Assembly: GCA_958296385.1 (NCBI GenBank)
Contig: OY282494.1
Location: forward strand, 2,145,537 to 2,209,536
Direction of reading: 5' to 3'
Origin: an uncultured Dehalococcoidia bacterium
GTDB lineage: Bacteria; Chloroflexota; Dehalococcoidia; Lucifugimonadales; UBA3495
Length of the DNA stretch: 64,000 nt
Under the pieces are notes generated by a model. The model was not told the origin of the DNA. It was given only the letters and a program-made list of their open reading frames with translations, and did no database searches. Position 1 is the first letter of the stretch; each line of letters starts with the position of its first letter. A program made the position numbers and the translations under genes. Positions 48,612 to 54,142 of this stretch are shown here, piece by piece.

Positions 48612-50018
48612 ATGCCTACTACCTCTCTGCCTGCTACTTTCGGCGAACTCAAGGCCAGCGGCTATCAGTCCGTTTCGGTGCGCGAGGAGGTGCGCCGCAA
48701 TTTGATTGACCGGATGCGCGCTGAGGAACCCGTGTTTCCCGGTATCATCGGCTTTGACCAGACCGTTATTCCGCAGCTGGAGAACGCCATTCTTGCCGGG
48801 CAGGACATCATCCTGCTGGGCGAGCGCGGCCAGGCCAAGACGCGGCTGATTCGCGCGATGGTTGACCTGCTGGATGAGTTTGTGCCTATCGTGGAGGGCA
48901 GCGAACTGAACGATGACCCGTTCAATCCCATCAGTCCTGATGCCCGGCGGGTTATGGCCGAGCTGGGCGACGAGGCGCCGGTGGCCTGGATTGGGCGCGA
49001 CTTGCGCTATTCCGAGAAGCTGGCGACGCCCGACATCTCAATCGCCGACTTGATTGGCGAGATTGACCCGATCAAGGTTGCCGAGGGGCGGCATCTGGCC
49101 GACGAGACCGCCATCCATTACGGGCTGGTGCCCCGCACCAACCGGGGCATATTCTGCATCAACGAGCTGCCCGACCTGGCCGAGCGCATCCAGGTGGGTC
49201 TGTTCAATCTGATGGAGGAGCGCGACGTGCAGATTAAGGGCTATCGCATCCGGATGCCGCTGGACGTGTTCGTGGTCGCCACCGCCAATCCGGAGGACTA
49301 TACCAACCGGGGGCGCATCGTGACGCCGCTGAAAGACCGCTACGGAGCGCAGATTCACACGCATTACCCGCGCACGATTGAGGAGGAAATTGCCATAATG
49401 GAGCAGGAACGCAACCGTTTCCCGGATGAGGAACGGGTGGTGGTTCCTGACTATATGACGGAAATCGTGGCGGAGGTAACGGCGCGGGCCCGGGGCAGCA
49501 GCGAAATCAACCAGCGCTCCGGGGTCAGCGTGCGCGTGTCAATCTCCGACTACGAAACGCTCATCAGCAACGCCCTGCGCCGCAGCATCCGCCTGGGCGA
49601 GGGAATCGCCTGCCCGCGCATCAGCGATTTGCCCTATCTCATCGCCTCGCTGGGCGGCAAAATTGAGCTGGAAACCTTTGGCGAAGGGCGGGAGGACCGG
49701 CTGGTGGACGAACTGACCAAGCGGGCTACTATGGCAATCTTTGGGCGCCATTGCGACGTGGACGCGCTGGACGACATTGTGACGGCGTTTGACCTAGGCA
49801 ACGCCGTGGAAACGGGCAGCGACGTGCCGGCGTCCGAATACGTCAACTCGCTGAGCCGCATTGCGGGGCTGCCCGACGCCGTGGCGATGCTGATTGGCGA
49901 CGACGGGCGGCCGGAAGTGATTGCCTCGGCGGTGGAGTTTGTGCTGGAAGGGCTGCACCTGAACCGCCGCCTGAACTGCGCCCGCACCGCCGCCGGCGGC
50001 TACCGCTACGCCCGGTAA
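48612..50018 (+). CDS. MoxR/magnesium-chelatase-type AAA+ ATPase
   Basis: A 468-residue protein from ATG 48612. The AAA+ core begins GFDQTVIPQLENAILAGQD, then a variant P-loop LLGERGQAKTRLIRA near residue 80, a Walker B-like GIFCINELPDLAERIQ near 180, sensor-like VVATANPEDYTNRGRI near 220 and PLKDRYGAQIHTHYP. This resembles MoxR/ChlI ATPases that remodel partner proteins or insert metals with VWA-domain proteins such as the one at 5345-6745. The partner gene lies 42 kb away here, an unusual separation. Client unknown. Confidence 0.88.
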   Translation: MPTTSLPATFGELKASGYQSVSVREEVRRNLIDRMRAEEPVFPGIIGFDQTVIPQLENAILAGQDIILLGERGQAKTRLIRAMVDLLDEFVPIVEGSELNDDPFNPISPDARRVMAELGDEAPVAWIGRDLRYSEKLATPDISIADLIGEIDPIKVAEGRHLADETAIHYGLVPRTNRGIFCINELPDLAERIQVGLFNLMEERDVQIKGYRIRMPLDVFVVATANPEDYTNRGRIVTPLKDRYGAQIHTHYPRTIEEEIAIMEQERNRFPDEERVVVPDYMTEIVAEVTARARGSSEINQRSGVSVRVSISDYETLISNALRRSIRLGEGIACPRISDLPYLIASLGGKIELETFGEGREDRLVDELTKRATMAIFGRHCDVDALDDIVTAFDLGNAVETGSDVPASEYVNSLSRIAGLPDAVAMLIGDDGRPEVIASAVEFVLEGLHLNRRLNCARTAAGGYRYAR

Positions 50019-50032
50019 TGCGGAGGTTTCTT

Positions 50033-50596
50033 ATGGCCACGCAAAATCCCATCGCTGCGCCGCCGGTAACGCTGGCCGAGTTTGCCGGGCTGCCGGAGTA
50101 TCCGCGCTATGAGTTGGTCAAGGGGGCACTGGTTGAGCTGATGGTGGCGTCTGAAGAGCATGAGCATACTGCATCGTTGACGCACTGGCGTTTGTCGGCG
50201 CACGTTTTCCCTAACGGGTTGGGGCGCGTCTATGGCAGCAACCGGGGCTATGTTACCGGGGCTGACTCGCCGGCTACATCTCGTTTGCCCGATGTTTCAT
50301 TCGTATCTGCCGCACGGCTGCGGCCTGATGTTTTGGGCAGGCTGTACGATGGGGCGCCTGATTTGGCGGTGGAGATTTTATCTGACAGCAATACCCCTGC
50401 CGAAATGGCGCAAAAGGTTGCCGAATACCTGAACGCCGGGGGCAAGGCCGTTTGGGTTATTGACGTTGACGCACGGACGCTTATCATTCACACGCCAGAT
50501 GCTCCGCCGCAAATCCTTACCGATGCTGACACGGTGAACGGCGGCGATTATCTGCCGGGGTTTGTTTGCGCCGTTGCTGACTTGCTGCCCCGATAA
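50033..50596 (+). CDS. Uma2-family protein, second cluster copy A
   Basis: A 187-residue protein from ATG 50033, with CGGAGG at 50021-50026. Motifs: MATQNPIAAPPVTLAEFAGL, SRLPDVSFVS (Asp), APDLAVEILSDSN (Glu), AEMAQKVAEYLNAGGKAVWVID (Lys then the EYW-equivalent KAVWVID). It has the standard Uma2 length, without the coiled-coil tail seen in the 17-20 kb copies. A start 15 bases upstream (ATG 50018) is possible but lacks a ribosome site. It follows the MoxR-like gene by 14 bases. Confidence 0.88.
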   Translation: MATQNPIAAPPVTLAEFAGLPEYPRYELVKGALVELMVASEEHEHTASLTHWRLSAHVFPNGLGRVYGSNRGYVTGADSPATSRLPDVSFVSAARLRPDVLGRLYDGAPDLAVEILSDSNTPAEMAQKVAEYLNAGGKAVWVIDVDARTLIIHTPDAPPQILTDADTVNGGDYLPGFVCAVADLLPR

Positions 50597-50610: not shown

Positions 50611-51174
50611 ATGGCCACGCAAAATCCCATCGCTGCGCCGCCGGTTCCGGTTACGCTGGCTGAGTTTGCCGCCTTGCCGGAGTATCCGCGCTATGAACTG
50701 GTTAAGGGGGAGTTGGTTGAGCTGATGGTTGCGTCTGATGAACACGAGGAGACGGTTATGCTGGTGGGCCACGGGCTGCTGTCCCACGCGCTGCCGCTGG
50801 GCCTGGGCAAGGTTTATGGCAGCAACCGGGGCTACGTTACCGGGCCTGACACATCCCGTATGCCTGACGTATCTTTTATCTCCACCGAGCGATTGCGGCC
50901 GGATATTGTGGGAAAGCTGTACGATGGCGCTCCTGATTTGGCGGTGGAGATTCTATCCGATGGCAACACGGCGGCGGAGATAAATCGGAAGATTGCCGAG
51001 TATTTGAACGCCGGGGGCAAGGCCGTTTGGGTTATTGACGTTGACGTACGGACGCTTATCATTCACACGCCCGATGCGCCGCCGCAGATACTTGCCGATG
51101 CTGATACGGTGAACGGCGGGGATTATCTGCCGGGGTTTGTTTGCCTTGTTGCTGATTTGCTGCCGTCACTCTGA
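50611..51174 (+). CDS. Uma2-family protein, second cluster copy B
   Basis: A 187-residue tandem paralogue from ATG 50611 (GCGGAGG upstream), 14 bases after copy A. Shared motifs: MATQNPIAAPPVPVTLAEF, SRMPDVSFIS (Asp), APDLAVEILSDGN (Glu) and RKIAEYLNAGGKAVWVID (Lys). The C-terminal 60 codons are almost identical in DNA to copy A, another sign of recent duplication or conversion. PD-(D/E)XK-like fold predicted; role unknown. Confidence 0.88.
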   Translation: MATQNPIAAPPVPVTLAEFAALPEYPRYELVKGELVELMVASDEHEETVMLVGHGLLSHALPLGLGKVYGSNRGYVTGPDTSRMPDVSFISTERLRPDIVGKLYDGAPDLAVEILSDGNTAAEINRKIAEYLNAGGKAVWVIDVDVRTLIIHTPDAPPQILADADTVNGGDYLPGFVCLVADLLPSL

Positions 51175-51190
51175 GCGCATCCCTCCATCA

Positions 51191-51294
51191 ATGTCATTCT
51201 GAGCGCAGCGAAGAATCTCGACGGCGTAGCGCACACTTTGGGGGAAAGGCCGTTGCTACGCTATCGAGATTCTTCGCTGCGCTCAGAATGACAT
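51191..51294. repeat. 104-bp inverted-repeat element (MITE/REP-like hairpin)
   Basis: Arms of 31 bp at 51191-51221 and 51264-51294 are perfect reverse complements, starting ATGTCATTCTGAGCGCAGCG. An inner GCGTAGC/GCTACGC (51224-51230 and 51255-51261) prolongs the stem. It lies between the convergent Uma2 and selenoprotein genes, so it may also end transcription. A diverged half copy is at 34686-34722. Confidence 0.85.
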
Positions 51295-51329
51295 TGGGGG
51301 GACAAAGGGGACGCTCAGGGGGGCCGGGG

Positions 51330-51659
51330 TTACACTACTGAGGCGCGGCGGCCCAGGGTTATGCCGTCGGGTAGGGTTATGGTGGCTTTGAGGTTTTGGA
51401 AGAATAGGAAGCGGCTCATTGAGAGGGCTATTTGTTCGGCGTGGTCGGTTATGCCGGGGGCCAGCAGCAGTTTGATGTCCTCCCAGTCGGTGGTGTCGTA
51501 GGCGTTGAGGTTGCGGCGGCGTTTGGTGTTGGTATCGACCGATACTTCTACTGATTCGCCGGTTCAACCTTTCCAGCAGAGCAGGTCGACGACGGCCTGG
51601 CCGCCTTTGCTGCGGATGAATTGCGCCGCATCGGGCGATATGTTCAGCTGAGCGGTCAT
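51330..51659 (-). CDS. Candidate selenoprotein with in-frame TGA (Sec32)
   Basis: From ATG 51659 to TAA 51332-51330 the frame holds 110 codons with one TGA at 51566-51564 (codon 32), giving a 109-residue product if TGA is read as selenocysteine. Before it: LNISPDAAQFIRSKGGQAVV and DLLCWKG (Cys28); after it TGESVEVSVDTNTKRRRNL and later ALSMSRFLFFQNLKATITL. Codon use after the TGA matches nearby genes. A hairpin with stem GUAUC/GAUAC and loop GGUC, the loop seen in E. coli fdhF, begins 18 bases after TGA. The N-terminus is HesB/IscA-like, as in known CC/Se-motif (seleno)proteins. The alternatives are a nonsense-mutated gene or a sequencing error. The gene follows the HD-domain gene by 51 bases. 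Confidence 0.65.
51518..51560 (-). promoter_or_regulatory. Putative bacterial SECIS element
   Basis: On the minus strand GUAUC (51545-51541), loop GGUC (51540-51537), GAUAC (51536-51532). The loop lies 23 bases after the TGA, inside the 16-37 range used for bacterial SECIS. GGCG (51560-51557) and CGCC (51521-51518) can add a lower stem. Confidence 0.55.
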
Positions 51660-51710: not shown

Positions 51711-52376
51711 CTAGCGGTCGAGCGGTCGGGGGGCGGTGGAGGGGGTGTCGGCTATTAAGAGGGAGTTTCGGGCTTCGATTGCCGCGGGGTGTATGGGGGC
51801 GCCGGCTTGCAGCAGGCGGGTTAGGTTGCGGGTCAGGAACATGGCGGTTGCGGCGGCCAGGTCGGTGTCGGCCAGCGCGCGCAGTTCGCCTTGCCAGGGG
51901 TAGGTGGGCAGTTTGACGGGGTCAAGTTTGTCGGCCAGGAATACCGCCTGTCCGATGGGGTCGCCGCCGGTTGGGTTGCCGGTGGTGTGCCAGTACACGG
52001 CGTTGTAGAGGGTGGGGTCGTCCAGGCGGTCTTCGCGGCGCAGCACTTCGGCGCCTACCGGGCCGTGCATGAGGGGGGCGTGGCGCAGCTCAAAGTCGGT
52101 GGCCGGCAGGGGGTATTCCTCGATTCGCAGCAGCAGTTCCAGGGGGCTGAAGTGCTTGGCGGCGTCGTGGCCCAGGGCGGCGATGCCAACTGCGTCGTCG
52201 TCCAGGCCGTGCCGTGTGGCCAGCTGGCGGGCGATTTGCTCTACGCGCTGGCAGTGGTCGCACAACGCGGGCGGCATCCGGTTAATCCGGCGGCGGATAC
52301 GGTCAATGACTGCGCCGGGGACGTGGATCGCGCCGGGGGCGTGAGTTTGGCCGGCGGTTGCGCTGGCGTCGCTCAC
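51711..52376 (-). CDS. HD-domain phosphohydrolase (YqeK-like)
   Basis: A 221-residue protein from GTG 52376, overlapping the HIT stop by one base (TAGTG). The metal-binding set is present: CDHCQRVEQIARQLA (His), AALGHDAAKHFSP (HD), HAPLMHGPVGAEVL and YWHTTGNPTGGD (His). This is the layout of YqeK, a dinucleoside tetraphosphate (Ap4A) hydrolase. With the HIT protein it suggests a nucleotide-clearance unit. The C-terminal tail is Pro/Ala-rich. Third gene of the minus operon. Confidence 0.85.
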   Translation of the reverse strand: MSDASATAGQTHAPGAIHVPGAVIDRIRRRINRMPPALCDHCQRVEQIARQLATRHGLDDDAVGIAALGHDAAKHFSPLELLLRIEEYPLPATDFELRHAPLMHGPVGAEVLRREDRLDDPTLYNAVYWHTTGNPTGGDPIGQAVFLADKLDPVKLPTYPWQGELRALADTDLAAATAMFLTRNLTRLLQAGAPIHPAAIEARNSLLIADTPSTAPRPLDR

Positions 52377-52732
52377 TAGCCCATCTCGCCGAGTTCGCGG
52401 CCGCCCAGCAGGTGGACGTGGGGCCAGGCGATGGTCTGTCCGGCGTCGGGGCCGTTGTTGAGAACGAGACGGTAGCCGCTGAGGGCAACGCCTTCACGAC
52501 GGGCCATTTCCTCGGCGACGACGAACAGATGGCCCATGATGGGAACCTGGCCGGGGCCGACGTAGGCGAGGCCGTTGATGGGCATATTGGGGATGATGAG
52601 CAGATGCACGGGGGCTTTGGGGTTGATGTCGCGCACCACGAAACAGCGCTCATCCCGATAAATAACGTCGGGATGCAGGGGGTCGCGGGACATGGCCATA
52701 AAAGGCGAACTGCGGGCGGGGGTCATCGTCAT
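52376..52732 (-). CDS. HIT-family hydrolase (HINT-like)
   Basis: A 118-residue protein with AAGGAG nine bases before ATG 52732. Family marks: RDERCFVVRDINPKAPVHLL, IIPNMPINGLAYVG, GYRLVLNNGPDAGQT and IAWPHVHLLGGRELGEMG. In typical HINT proteins the final motif is H-x-H-x-H; here the first His is replaced by Trp (WPHVH), leaving the catalytic middle His and the last one. It would hydrolyse adenosine phosphoramidate-like or AppA-type compounds. The YqeK-like gene follows with a one-base overlap. Confidence 0.85.
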   Translation of the reverse strand: MTMTPARSSPFMAMSRDPLHPDVIYRDERCFVVRDINPKAPVHLLIIPNMPINGLAYVGPGQVPIMGHLFVVAEEMARREGVALSGYRLVLNNGPDAGQTIAWPHVHLLGGRELGEMG

Positions 52733-52788: not shown

Positions 52789-53928
52789 TCAGCCGGCCTC
52801 GATCTCTTGCAGGGCGATTTCCTTGTGTTCGTGGGTGCTGCCGTAGGATAGTTCCTGGACTTTGGCGCGGCGGGTGTAGAGCTGGAGGTTGTGTTCCATG
52901 GTGAAGCCGATGGCGCCGTGGCACTGGTGGCCGAGGGAGCAGACGCGCTGGTAGGCGCCGCTGCACCAGGCTTTGGCCATGGCTACTTCCCGCCGGGCCG
53001 GTTCGCCCTCGGCGATGGCCCAGGCGGCCTGATAGGCGATTTGACGCGCGCCCTCAACGTCGGTGGCCATGTTGGCGCAGTGATGCTGGACGGCCTGGAA
53101 ACTGCCTACCGGCCGGCCGAATTGCGTGCGCTGCTTGACGTACTCGACGGTCATTTCCAGCACGGCGTCGGCGCCGCCGACCATCTGCACGCAGTGGGCC
53201 GCCGTGGCCCGGGCCAGCGTGCGCCGGATGATGGGCCAGCCCTCGCCAACCGGGCCCAAGACGGCGGCGGCGTCCACCCACACGTTGTCCAGCCGCACTT
53301 CGCAAAGGCGCTCGTTGCCGATGGTGCTGATTTGCTCCACTGTAACGCCGTCGGCGTGGGACGGCACCAGGAACAGGGTAATGCCCTGCTCCGGGTTGGC
53401 GCCGGCGGGGGCGGTGCGGGCGGCGACGATGATGGTATCGGCGGCGTGGGCGTCGGGGACGAACAGCTTGACGCCGTTGATGGCGTAGCCATCGGCAGAT
53501 GCGTCGGCGGTGGTGGTTACGCCCCAGGCTGCGGTGGTTGCCGATGGCTCGGTGAGGGCCAGGGTCAGGCGGACGGTGCCGGCGCAAACGCCGGTGAGCA
53601 GGTCGCGCTTTTGGTCGTCATTGCCGGCGTCGAGGACGGTGAGGCCGCCGAGGACGACGGTGGCAAAGAACGGCGCTGGCAGCAGGGCACGGCCCATTTC
53701 CTCGACGAGCACGGCGAGGTCGAGGAACGAGCCCCCGGTGCCGCCGTACTGCTCGGGGAACGGGATGCCCGTCCAGCCCAAGCTGCTGACCTGGCGCCAG
53801 AGGTCATCGGTAAAACCCTGCGGGTCGTCCTCCATTTCACGCACGAGCGTTAGAGGACATTCCTGCGCCAGAAACTCGCGCGCCGAGTTTTTCAGCATCT
53901 GCTGAATCTCGCTCAAGCCCATATCCAT
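52789..53928 (-). CDS. Acyl-CoA dehydrogenase
   Basis: A 379-residue flavoprotein; ATG 53928 is preceded by GGGAGGG with a short spacer, so the longer upstream frame is rejected. Family marks: LGWTGIPFPEQYGGTGGSFL, LTEPSATTAAWG for FAD/substrate contacts, YAINGVKLFVPDAHAADTI, TQFGRPVGSFQAVQHHCANM near residue 255 and the terminal GAIGFTMEHNLQLYTRRAK. It oxidises acyl-CoA to enoyl-CoA and passes electrons to ETF. Chain-length preference is unknown. First gene of a four-gene minus-strand group with HIT, YqeK-like and the candidate selenoprotein. Confidence 0.92.
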   Translation of the reverse strand: MDMGLSEIQQMLKNSAREFLAQECPLTLVREMEDDPQGFTDDLWRQVSSLGWTGIPFPEQYGGTGGSFLDLAVLVEEMGRALLPAPFFATVVLGGLTVLDAGNDDQKRDLLTGVCAGTVRLTLALTEPSATTAAWGVTTTADASADGYAINGVKLFVPDAHAADTIIVAARTAPAGANPEQGITLFLVPSHADGVTVEQISTIGNERLCEVRLDNVWVDAAAVLGPVGEGWPIIRRTLARATAAHCVQMVGGADAVLEMTVEYVKQRTQFGRPVGSFQAVQHHCANMATDVEGARQIAYQAAWAIAEGEPARREVAMAKAWCSGAYQRVCSLGHQCHGAIGFTMEHNLQLYTRRAKVQELSYGSTHEHKEIALQEIEAG

Positions 53929-53989
53929 AAAGCGGCCCTCCCGGCCCCGGCCCGTCGGCCATATCGCTTGCGAAAAGCAAACCGCAGGG

Positions 53990-54019
53990 AGTATAGCGCA
54001 ACGGATTGCCCGGCGGCAA
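53990..54019 (-). promoter_or_regulatory. Promoter for the acyl-CoA dehydrogenase operon
   Basis: Minus strand TTGCCG (54019-54014), 18-base spacer, TATACT (53995-53990); start codon 55-60 bases downstream. Confidence 0.5.
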
Positions 54020-54102
54020 ACGGACGGCCGCCGGGACGGGGTTTTGTTCAAGGTGGTTTGGTCAAGTGGAGTGTCGCTGATTTTTGGGATTGGGGGGTGA
54101 CG

Positions 54103-54142
54103 CTGGGGGAAATGATTTCCCCCAGACCCCCTCATAAGGGGT
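54103..54142. other. Two adjacent hairpins in a divergent intergenic region
   Basis: CTGGGGGAA/TTCCCCCAG (54103-54125, loop ATGAT) is followed by ACCCC/GGGGT (54126-54142). They lie between divergently transcribed genes, so they are unlikely to be gene-end terminators; they could be a REP-like palindrome or regulatory RNA structure. The rest of 53929-54222 holds only the promoter noted above and a 17-base dispersed match at 54051-54067. Confidence 0.6.

Follow-up and report, generated by a model that had tools for sequence, protein, structure and literature searches.

A divergent selenoprotein gene of a Dehalococcoidia bacterium, with a GGUC-loop SECIS hairpin and a predicted A-type carrier fold

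In the SECIS of E. coli fdhF, a short stem closely following the UGA codon bears a GGUC apical loop. Bacterial SECIS elements in general are described as hairpins lying just downstream of UGA, with a G in a small apical loop (PMC1088965). Among the selenoprotein families listed in a 2026 review, NCBIfam NF041239, the 'CC/Se motif family (seleno)protein', is given the motif CxxU and one selenocysteine (Sec), and the HesB-like selenoprotein TIGR01911 is given the motif UxGP (PMC13188914). Here, we analysed a stretch of 64,000 nucleotides (the window) from the 3.3 Mb single-contig genome of an uncultured Dehalococcoidia bacterium, for which a preliminary description had proposed a new selenoprotein gene. 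The features of the locus are collected in Table 1.

Table 1. Features of the selenoprotein locus, in window positions
Feature	Position	Strand	Basis or remark
Selenoprotein gene	51330..51659	-	ATG 51659 to TAA 51330; 109 residues with Sec32, TAA stop; NF041239 match and same-genus TGA homologues
In-frame TGA, codon 32, read as Sec	51564..51566	-	TGA in 72/72 relatives; Cys in aligned L025/L026, TGA in L027
Cys28 codon	51576..51578	-	Proposed Sec partner; lineage-specific, Cys in 27/72 relatives
SECIS hairpin GUAUC-GGUC-GAUAC	51532..51545	-	Apical loop GGUC 51540-51537; synonymous constraint, and co-variation over 66 loci
HD-domain protein gene (YqeK-like in the preliminary description)	51711..52376	-	PF01966, E=4.6e-10; 51 bp upstream of the ATG; synteny
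HIT-family-like gene (name from the preliminary description)	52376..52732	-	Upstream; synteny by tblastn in the GTDB family
Acyl-CoA-dehydrogenase-like gene (name from the preliminary description)	52789..54135	-	Upstream; synteny by tblastn in the GTDB family

The frame first proposed was recovered on the minus strand at the same coordinates, as 110 codons from ATG to TAA whose sole break is the TGA at codon 32; read with Sec at that place, the protein is MTAQLNISPD...LLCWKGUTGESVEVSVDT...TLGRRASVV. A pseudogene or an assembly error, in which codon 32 of an ordinary gene became a nonsense codon, is what an in-frame TGA usually looks like, and the unremarkable RNA fold of the single sequence agrees with such an origin; this reading is nevertheless already refuted by the conservation of the TGA and of the protein sequence downstream of it, and we give it practically no credence. 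The TGA occupies the same codon in all 72 distinct relatives, which derive from many separate assemblies, and purifying selection is alike on either side of it, with dN/dS of ~0.16 before the TGA and still ~0.18 after it among 14 same-genus sequences. A scan of public genomes returned 15 relatives with TGA at the aligned codon in every one; one of them, at 42% identity, comes from an Actinomycetes metagenome bin. Profile searches gave 47 matches in 41 of 99 related genomes, each with one TGA, and 27 matches class-wide, with TGA in 27/27, while within the genus the gene was present in 14 of the 14 members searched. No stop-free, Cys or truncated form at codon 32 was seen in the class among the 72 distinct sequences.

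Homologues with Cys at the UGA position do exist in other Chloroflexota, none having been found within the class. A search of 400 genomes of the phylum with NF041239 yielded three weak matches besides that of the window itself, which, when read on the right strand, proved to be two CC forms (L025 and L026) and one CU form (L027). The stop-free L025 and L026, from another Chloroflexota group, have Cys at the place of codon 32 within the motif RCC-x-G, and L027, also from outside the class, reads RC-TGA-SG, followed by a GTGTC-GGTC-GATAC hairpin of its own. The homologues with Sec or Cys at position 32 for which the preliminary description had called are available in both kinds, Sec in 72/72 and Cys in L025 and L026. 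One further candidate member, L044, looks like a chance match and was set aside.

Translation beyond the TGA, clear from selection alone, is also what would be expected if a near-cognate or suppressor tRNA, or a changed code, let the UGA be read as something other than Sec. We consider this highly improbable, given the Cys at the codon-32 place in the stop-free relatives, the constraint on the UGA-linked GGUC hairpin described below, and the full Sec machinery present in the genome; moreover, the fetched loci contain 239 distinct longer ORFs that terminate at TGA, which therefore appears to be an ordinary stop there. The machinery comprises selA (537 bits), selB (357 bits), selD (374 bits) and tRNA-Sec (66 bits), each above its cut-off, and is thus present in the very genome in which the preliminary description had suggested looking for it. 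Homologues truncated at codon 32 and a genome devoid of Sec machinery, both of which that description had named as grounds against its own proposal, are not what was found. As selA exceeds its cut-off in 84 of the 99 relatives, its co-occurrence with the gene is uninformative within the order. The genome's own SelD gene (L012, G000:C1:1766127-1767047) has an in-frame TGA, in the context HCAGUAAK, and because of it the selenophosphate synthetase looks like a selenoprotein too.

Decoding as Sec is further indicated by the hairpin, which was found where it had been claimed, as GTATC-GGTC-GATAC starting 18 nt after the TGA, with its loop starting 23 nt after it. Folded by itself, the window sequence does not stand out (z -1.5, equalled or bettered by 12 of 200 shuffles), and the case for a SECIS therefore rests on comparison. 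Among the 14 same-genus sequences, codons 39-44, which form the hairpin, show no synonymous differences, the mean elsewhere being 0.39; a value as low was reached by 1 in 100,000 random codon sets. Over 66 loci, the commonest forms are GGTATC-GGTC-GATACC and GGTGTC-GGTC-GACACC, all six rungs are paired in 58 of the 66 first-TGA hairpins, and the spacer from TGA to paired block is 17 or 14 nt; the spacer of 18 in the window arises because the outermost rung is there an A.C mismatch. Rung 4 co-varies, being A-U in 35 hairpins, G-C in 30 and mixed in one (kinship is ignored in these and the other counts over the 66 loci), and both changes are synonymous, in Val and Asp codons. In one of the 66, the outermost rung has G-C replaced by C-G. 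The loop contains GU in 66/66 hairpins, but GU also served to locate them. A scan of the locus with Rfam gave no match. The locus agrees with the general description of bacterial SECIS elements, its loop being small and containing G and its structure being conserved.

Because the hairpin is both strongly constrained at synonymous positions and co-varying, we conclude with high confidence that the window gene is a selenoprotein gene, and the recoded UGA and its SECIS can be regarded as established by sequence analysis. On this point the preliminary description was right, its Sec-encoding UGA with a GGUC-loop SECIS being backed by conservation, constraint and co-variation alike. In the mechanism that we propose, SelB bound to Sec-tRNA would recognise the GGUC-loop hairpin just after UGA32, Sec would be inserted at that codon, and translation would then run on to the TAA.

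The surroundings of the gene carry less information on its role. The acyl-CoA dehydrogenase, HIT and HD (YqeK) neighbourhood reported earlier is real and is kept in most of the GTDB family members that were compared, even where the identity of the HD protein falls to 45%. In more distant relatives, this neighbourhood was not conserved in tblastn synteny comparisons; being confined to the family, the context therefore marks lineage more than function. In some genomes of the family, the selenoprotein gene is present as a tandem pair, the second copy likewise containing TGA (L061, L064, L065, L068, L069 and L070); the hairpins of these second copies seem shifted to another register, for example GCCGA-GGUC-UCGGU, and some of their loops read GAUC. 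Just downstream of the window gene, at 51170-51310, lies a long inverted repeat, CATTCTGAGCGCAGCGAAGAATCTCGA ... TCGAGATTCTTCGCTGCGCTCAGAATG, which is perhaps a small mobile or REP-like element. Tandem Uma2-family genes occupy window positions 50018-50596 and 50611-51174 (PF05685 for the second), and relatives have up to five copies of such genes at the same place.

The window protein matches NF041239 over residues 4-92 with E=1e-9 and 38.3 bits, falling just short of the curated cut-off of 40, and the same model matches 35/35 scanned members, the best at 3e-13. These matches support the kinship with HesB-like and CC/Se selenoproteins that had been claimed. TIGR01911 gave no match to the window protein at E<=10 and is absent from the table of the 35 scanned members. 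The earlier wording 'new selenoprotein', taken as a new family, does not hold, because selenoproteins of this kind are already covered by NF041239, which is itself among the listed families (PMC13188914). Judged from sequence, the window gene is instead a divergent, Sec-only branch beside the known family. Selenoprotein genes of the NF041239-like kind are easily overlooked in annotation because their UGA is taken as a stop.

The sequence around the Sec bears on how the protein might work. The CxxU motif is absent, since position -3 of the window protein is Trp, and a Cys just before the Sec is not fixed among the 72 relatives. What is conserved is U-x-G, with Sec in 72/72 and Gly at +2 in 68/72. 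The preliminary description had paired Cys28 with Sec32, and a selenoprotein whose working motif is such a C-xxx-U redox pair draws some support from position -4, which is Cys throughout the 14 same-genus sequences and in 13 further relatives. In 45 of the 72, however, position -4 is Ser, Pro, Ala, Arg, Gln or another residue, while the Sec and the Gly at +2 stay. Given a Cys at -4 in 27/72 against a Gly at +2 in 68/72, the C-xxx-U pair is therefore limited to some lineages; the pairing does not stand as a general feature, and we consider it unlikely to be the working motif. That a Sec-only branch exists beside a family listed with CxxU speaks against a simple redox pair of Cys and Sec, and in favour of a selenolate occupying the ligand site of an A-type carrier.

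The predicted structure points in the same direction. The AlphaFold2 model of the window protein has a pLDDT of 84, and solved proteins of the IscA/SufA/HesB type make up eight of its nine top matches in Foldseek. VIA-align superposed the model on SufA with Z 8.2 over 87 residues at 3.1 A, and on IscA with Z 7.2; these fold matches are modest (best Foldseek E 8e-3, Z ~8). The model of a relative with two Sec residues matches SufA with a Foldseek E of 1.5e-4. At the level of sequence, Pfam gave no match for the window protein, PF01521 included, and a search of PDB sequences with a 16-member profile gave none either; PF01521 (Fe-S_biosyn) is weakly matched by 15 of 35 relatives, with a best E of 5e-4. 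An ordinary A-type carrier with ACGCG (L091) is also encoded in the genome. Profile alignment pairs Sec32-x-Gly with the C-x-G motif of the IscA encoded in the same genome, and, since this alignment is weak (14% probability), the equivalence of Sec32 with the first ligand Cys of IscA is suggestive. An IscA-like fold and the rough place of the Sec within it are supported by the models.

Taken together, the window gene very probably encodes a 109-residue selenoprotein, made by way of the GGUC SECIS, with a predicted A-type carrier fold and a lone selenolate. The product would most likely take the HesB/IscA/SufA fold, as modelled, with the selenolate aligned with the first ligand cysteine of IscA, U-x-G corresponding to the C-x-G of IscA, and the C-terminal ligand tail absent. 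Such a selenolate may bind or transfer a metal or Fe-S unit, or it may perform one-selenolate redox chemistry rather than act through a C-xxx-U pair.

In 22 class-level relatives (L081, L083, L088, L095, L097, L098, L101-L103 and L106-L118), a second in-frame TGA occurs near the C terminus, giving the tail [T/A]-U-x-H-(G)-stop, and in five others (L085, L099, L100, L104 and L105) Cys stands at the place of this second TGA. The strict x-H-(G)-stop tail was found in 18 of the 22 second-TGA genes and in 1 of 239 controls, a set of distinct ORFs from the fetched loci that are at least 150 codons long and end in TGA. A GU-loop hairpin lies 17-27 nt after the TGA in 21/22 Sec-tail genes, 15/239 controls and 0/5 Cys-tail genes, kinship being ignored in these counts, of which 21/22 is optimistic because the hairpin rule was framed after sight of these sequences. 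Sec and Cys tails are also told apart by a score that uses no such rule (p 0.001, kinship again ignored). Because the reading frame closes two to four codons past the TGA, the hairpin is mostly or wholly beyond the stop. Transcription terminators were considered for these hairpins and rejected: the T runs that follow them are at most 4 long, and such hairpins are lacking in the five Cys-tail genes.

The selA gene exceeds its cut-off in 21 of the 28 relevant genomes; most of the seven others are incomplete assemblies, two of them passing 90% completeness. Human thioredoxin reductase has been produced in E. coli with a bacterial SECIS engineered into the 3' untranslated region (PMC9595596), and an arrangement beyond the stop can therefore work. 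The literature searched did not yield any description of a natural bacterial SECIS lying past the stop codon. It is likely that other Dehalococcoidia lineages make two-Sec proteins with a 3'-UTR SECIS and that the window branch is tail-less, with the first Sec alone; the window protein has no [T/A]-U-x-H tail. In such two-Sec proteins, this tail would sit where IscA has its C-terminal ligand cysteines. If these relatives are real, they would provide natural cases in which a bacterial SECIS works from a site outside the coding sequence.

Compared with the known systems, the window hairpin resembles the SECIS of E. coli fdhF in bearing a GGUC loop at the tip of a short stem close downstream of UGA, a comparison that covers the apical loop and short stem, and differs in its 5-bp stem (6 bp in most relatives), which starts 18 nt after UGA. 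The window protein and its relatives share with NF041239 (Moorella type) the presence of Sec or Cys at the same place. Unlike the CC/CU forms of that family (L025-L027), most window-type relatives have Gly, Ser or Thr in place of the Cys just before the Sec or Cys, and, unlike the CxxU with one Sec listed for the family (PMC13188914), the window protein has C-xxx-U with an unconserved Cys. The U-x-G motif and the predicted HesB-like fold are in common with TIGR01911, whereas U-x-G is followed mostly by Ser, Glu, His or Arg rather than by the Pro of UxGP. The A-type carriers IscA, SufA and ErpA (PF01521) have Cys where the window protein has Sec, and two C-terminal ligand cysteines (CGCG) where it ends TLGRRASVV, but the fold predicted for the window protein resembles theirs, with the first ligand at roughly the same position.
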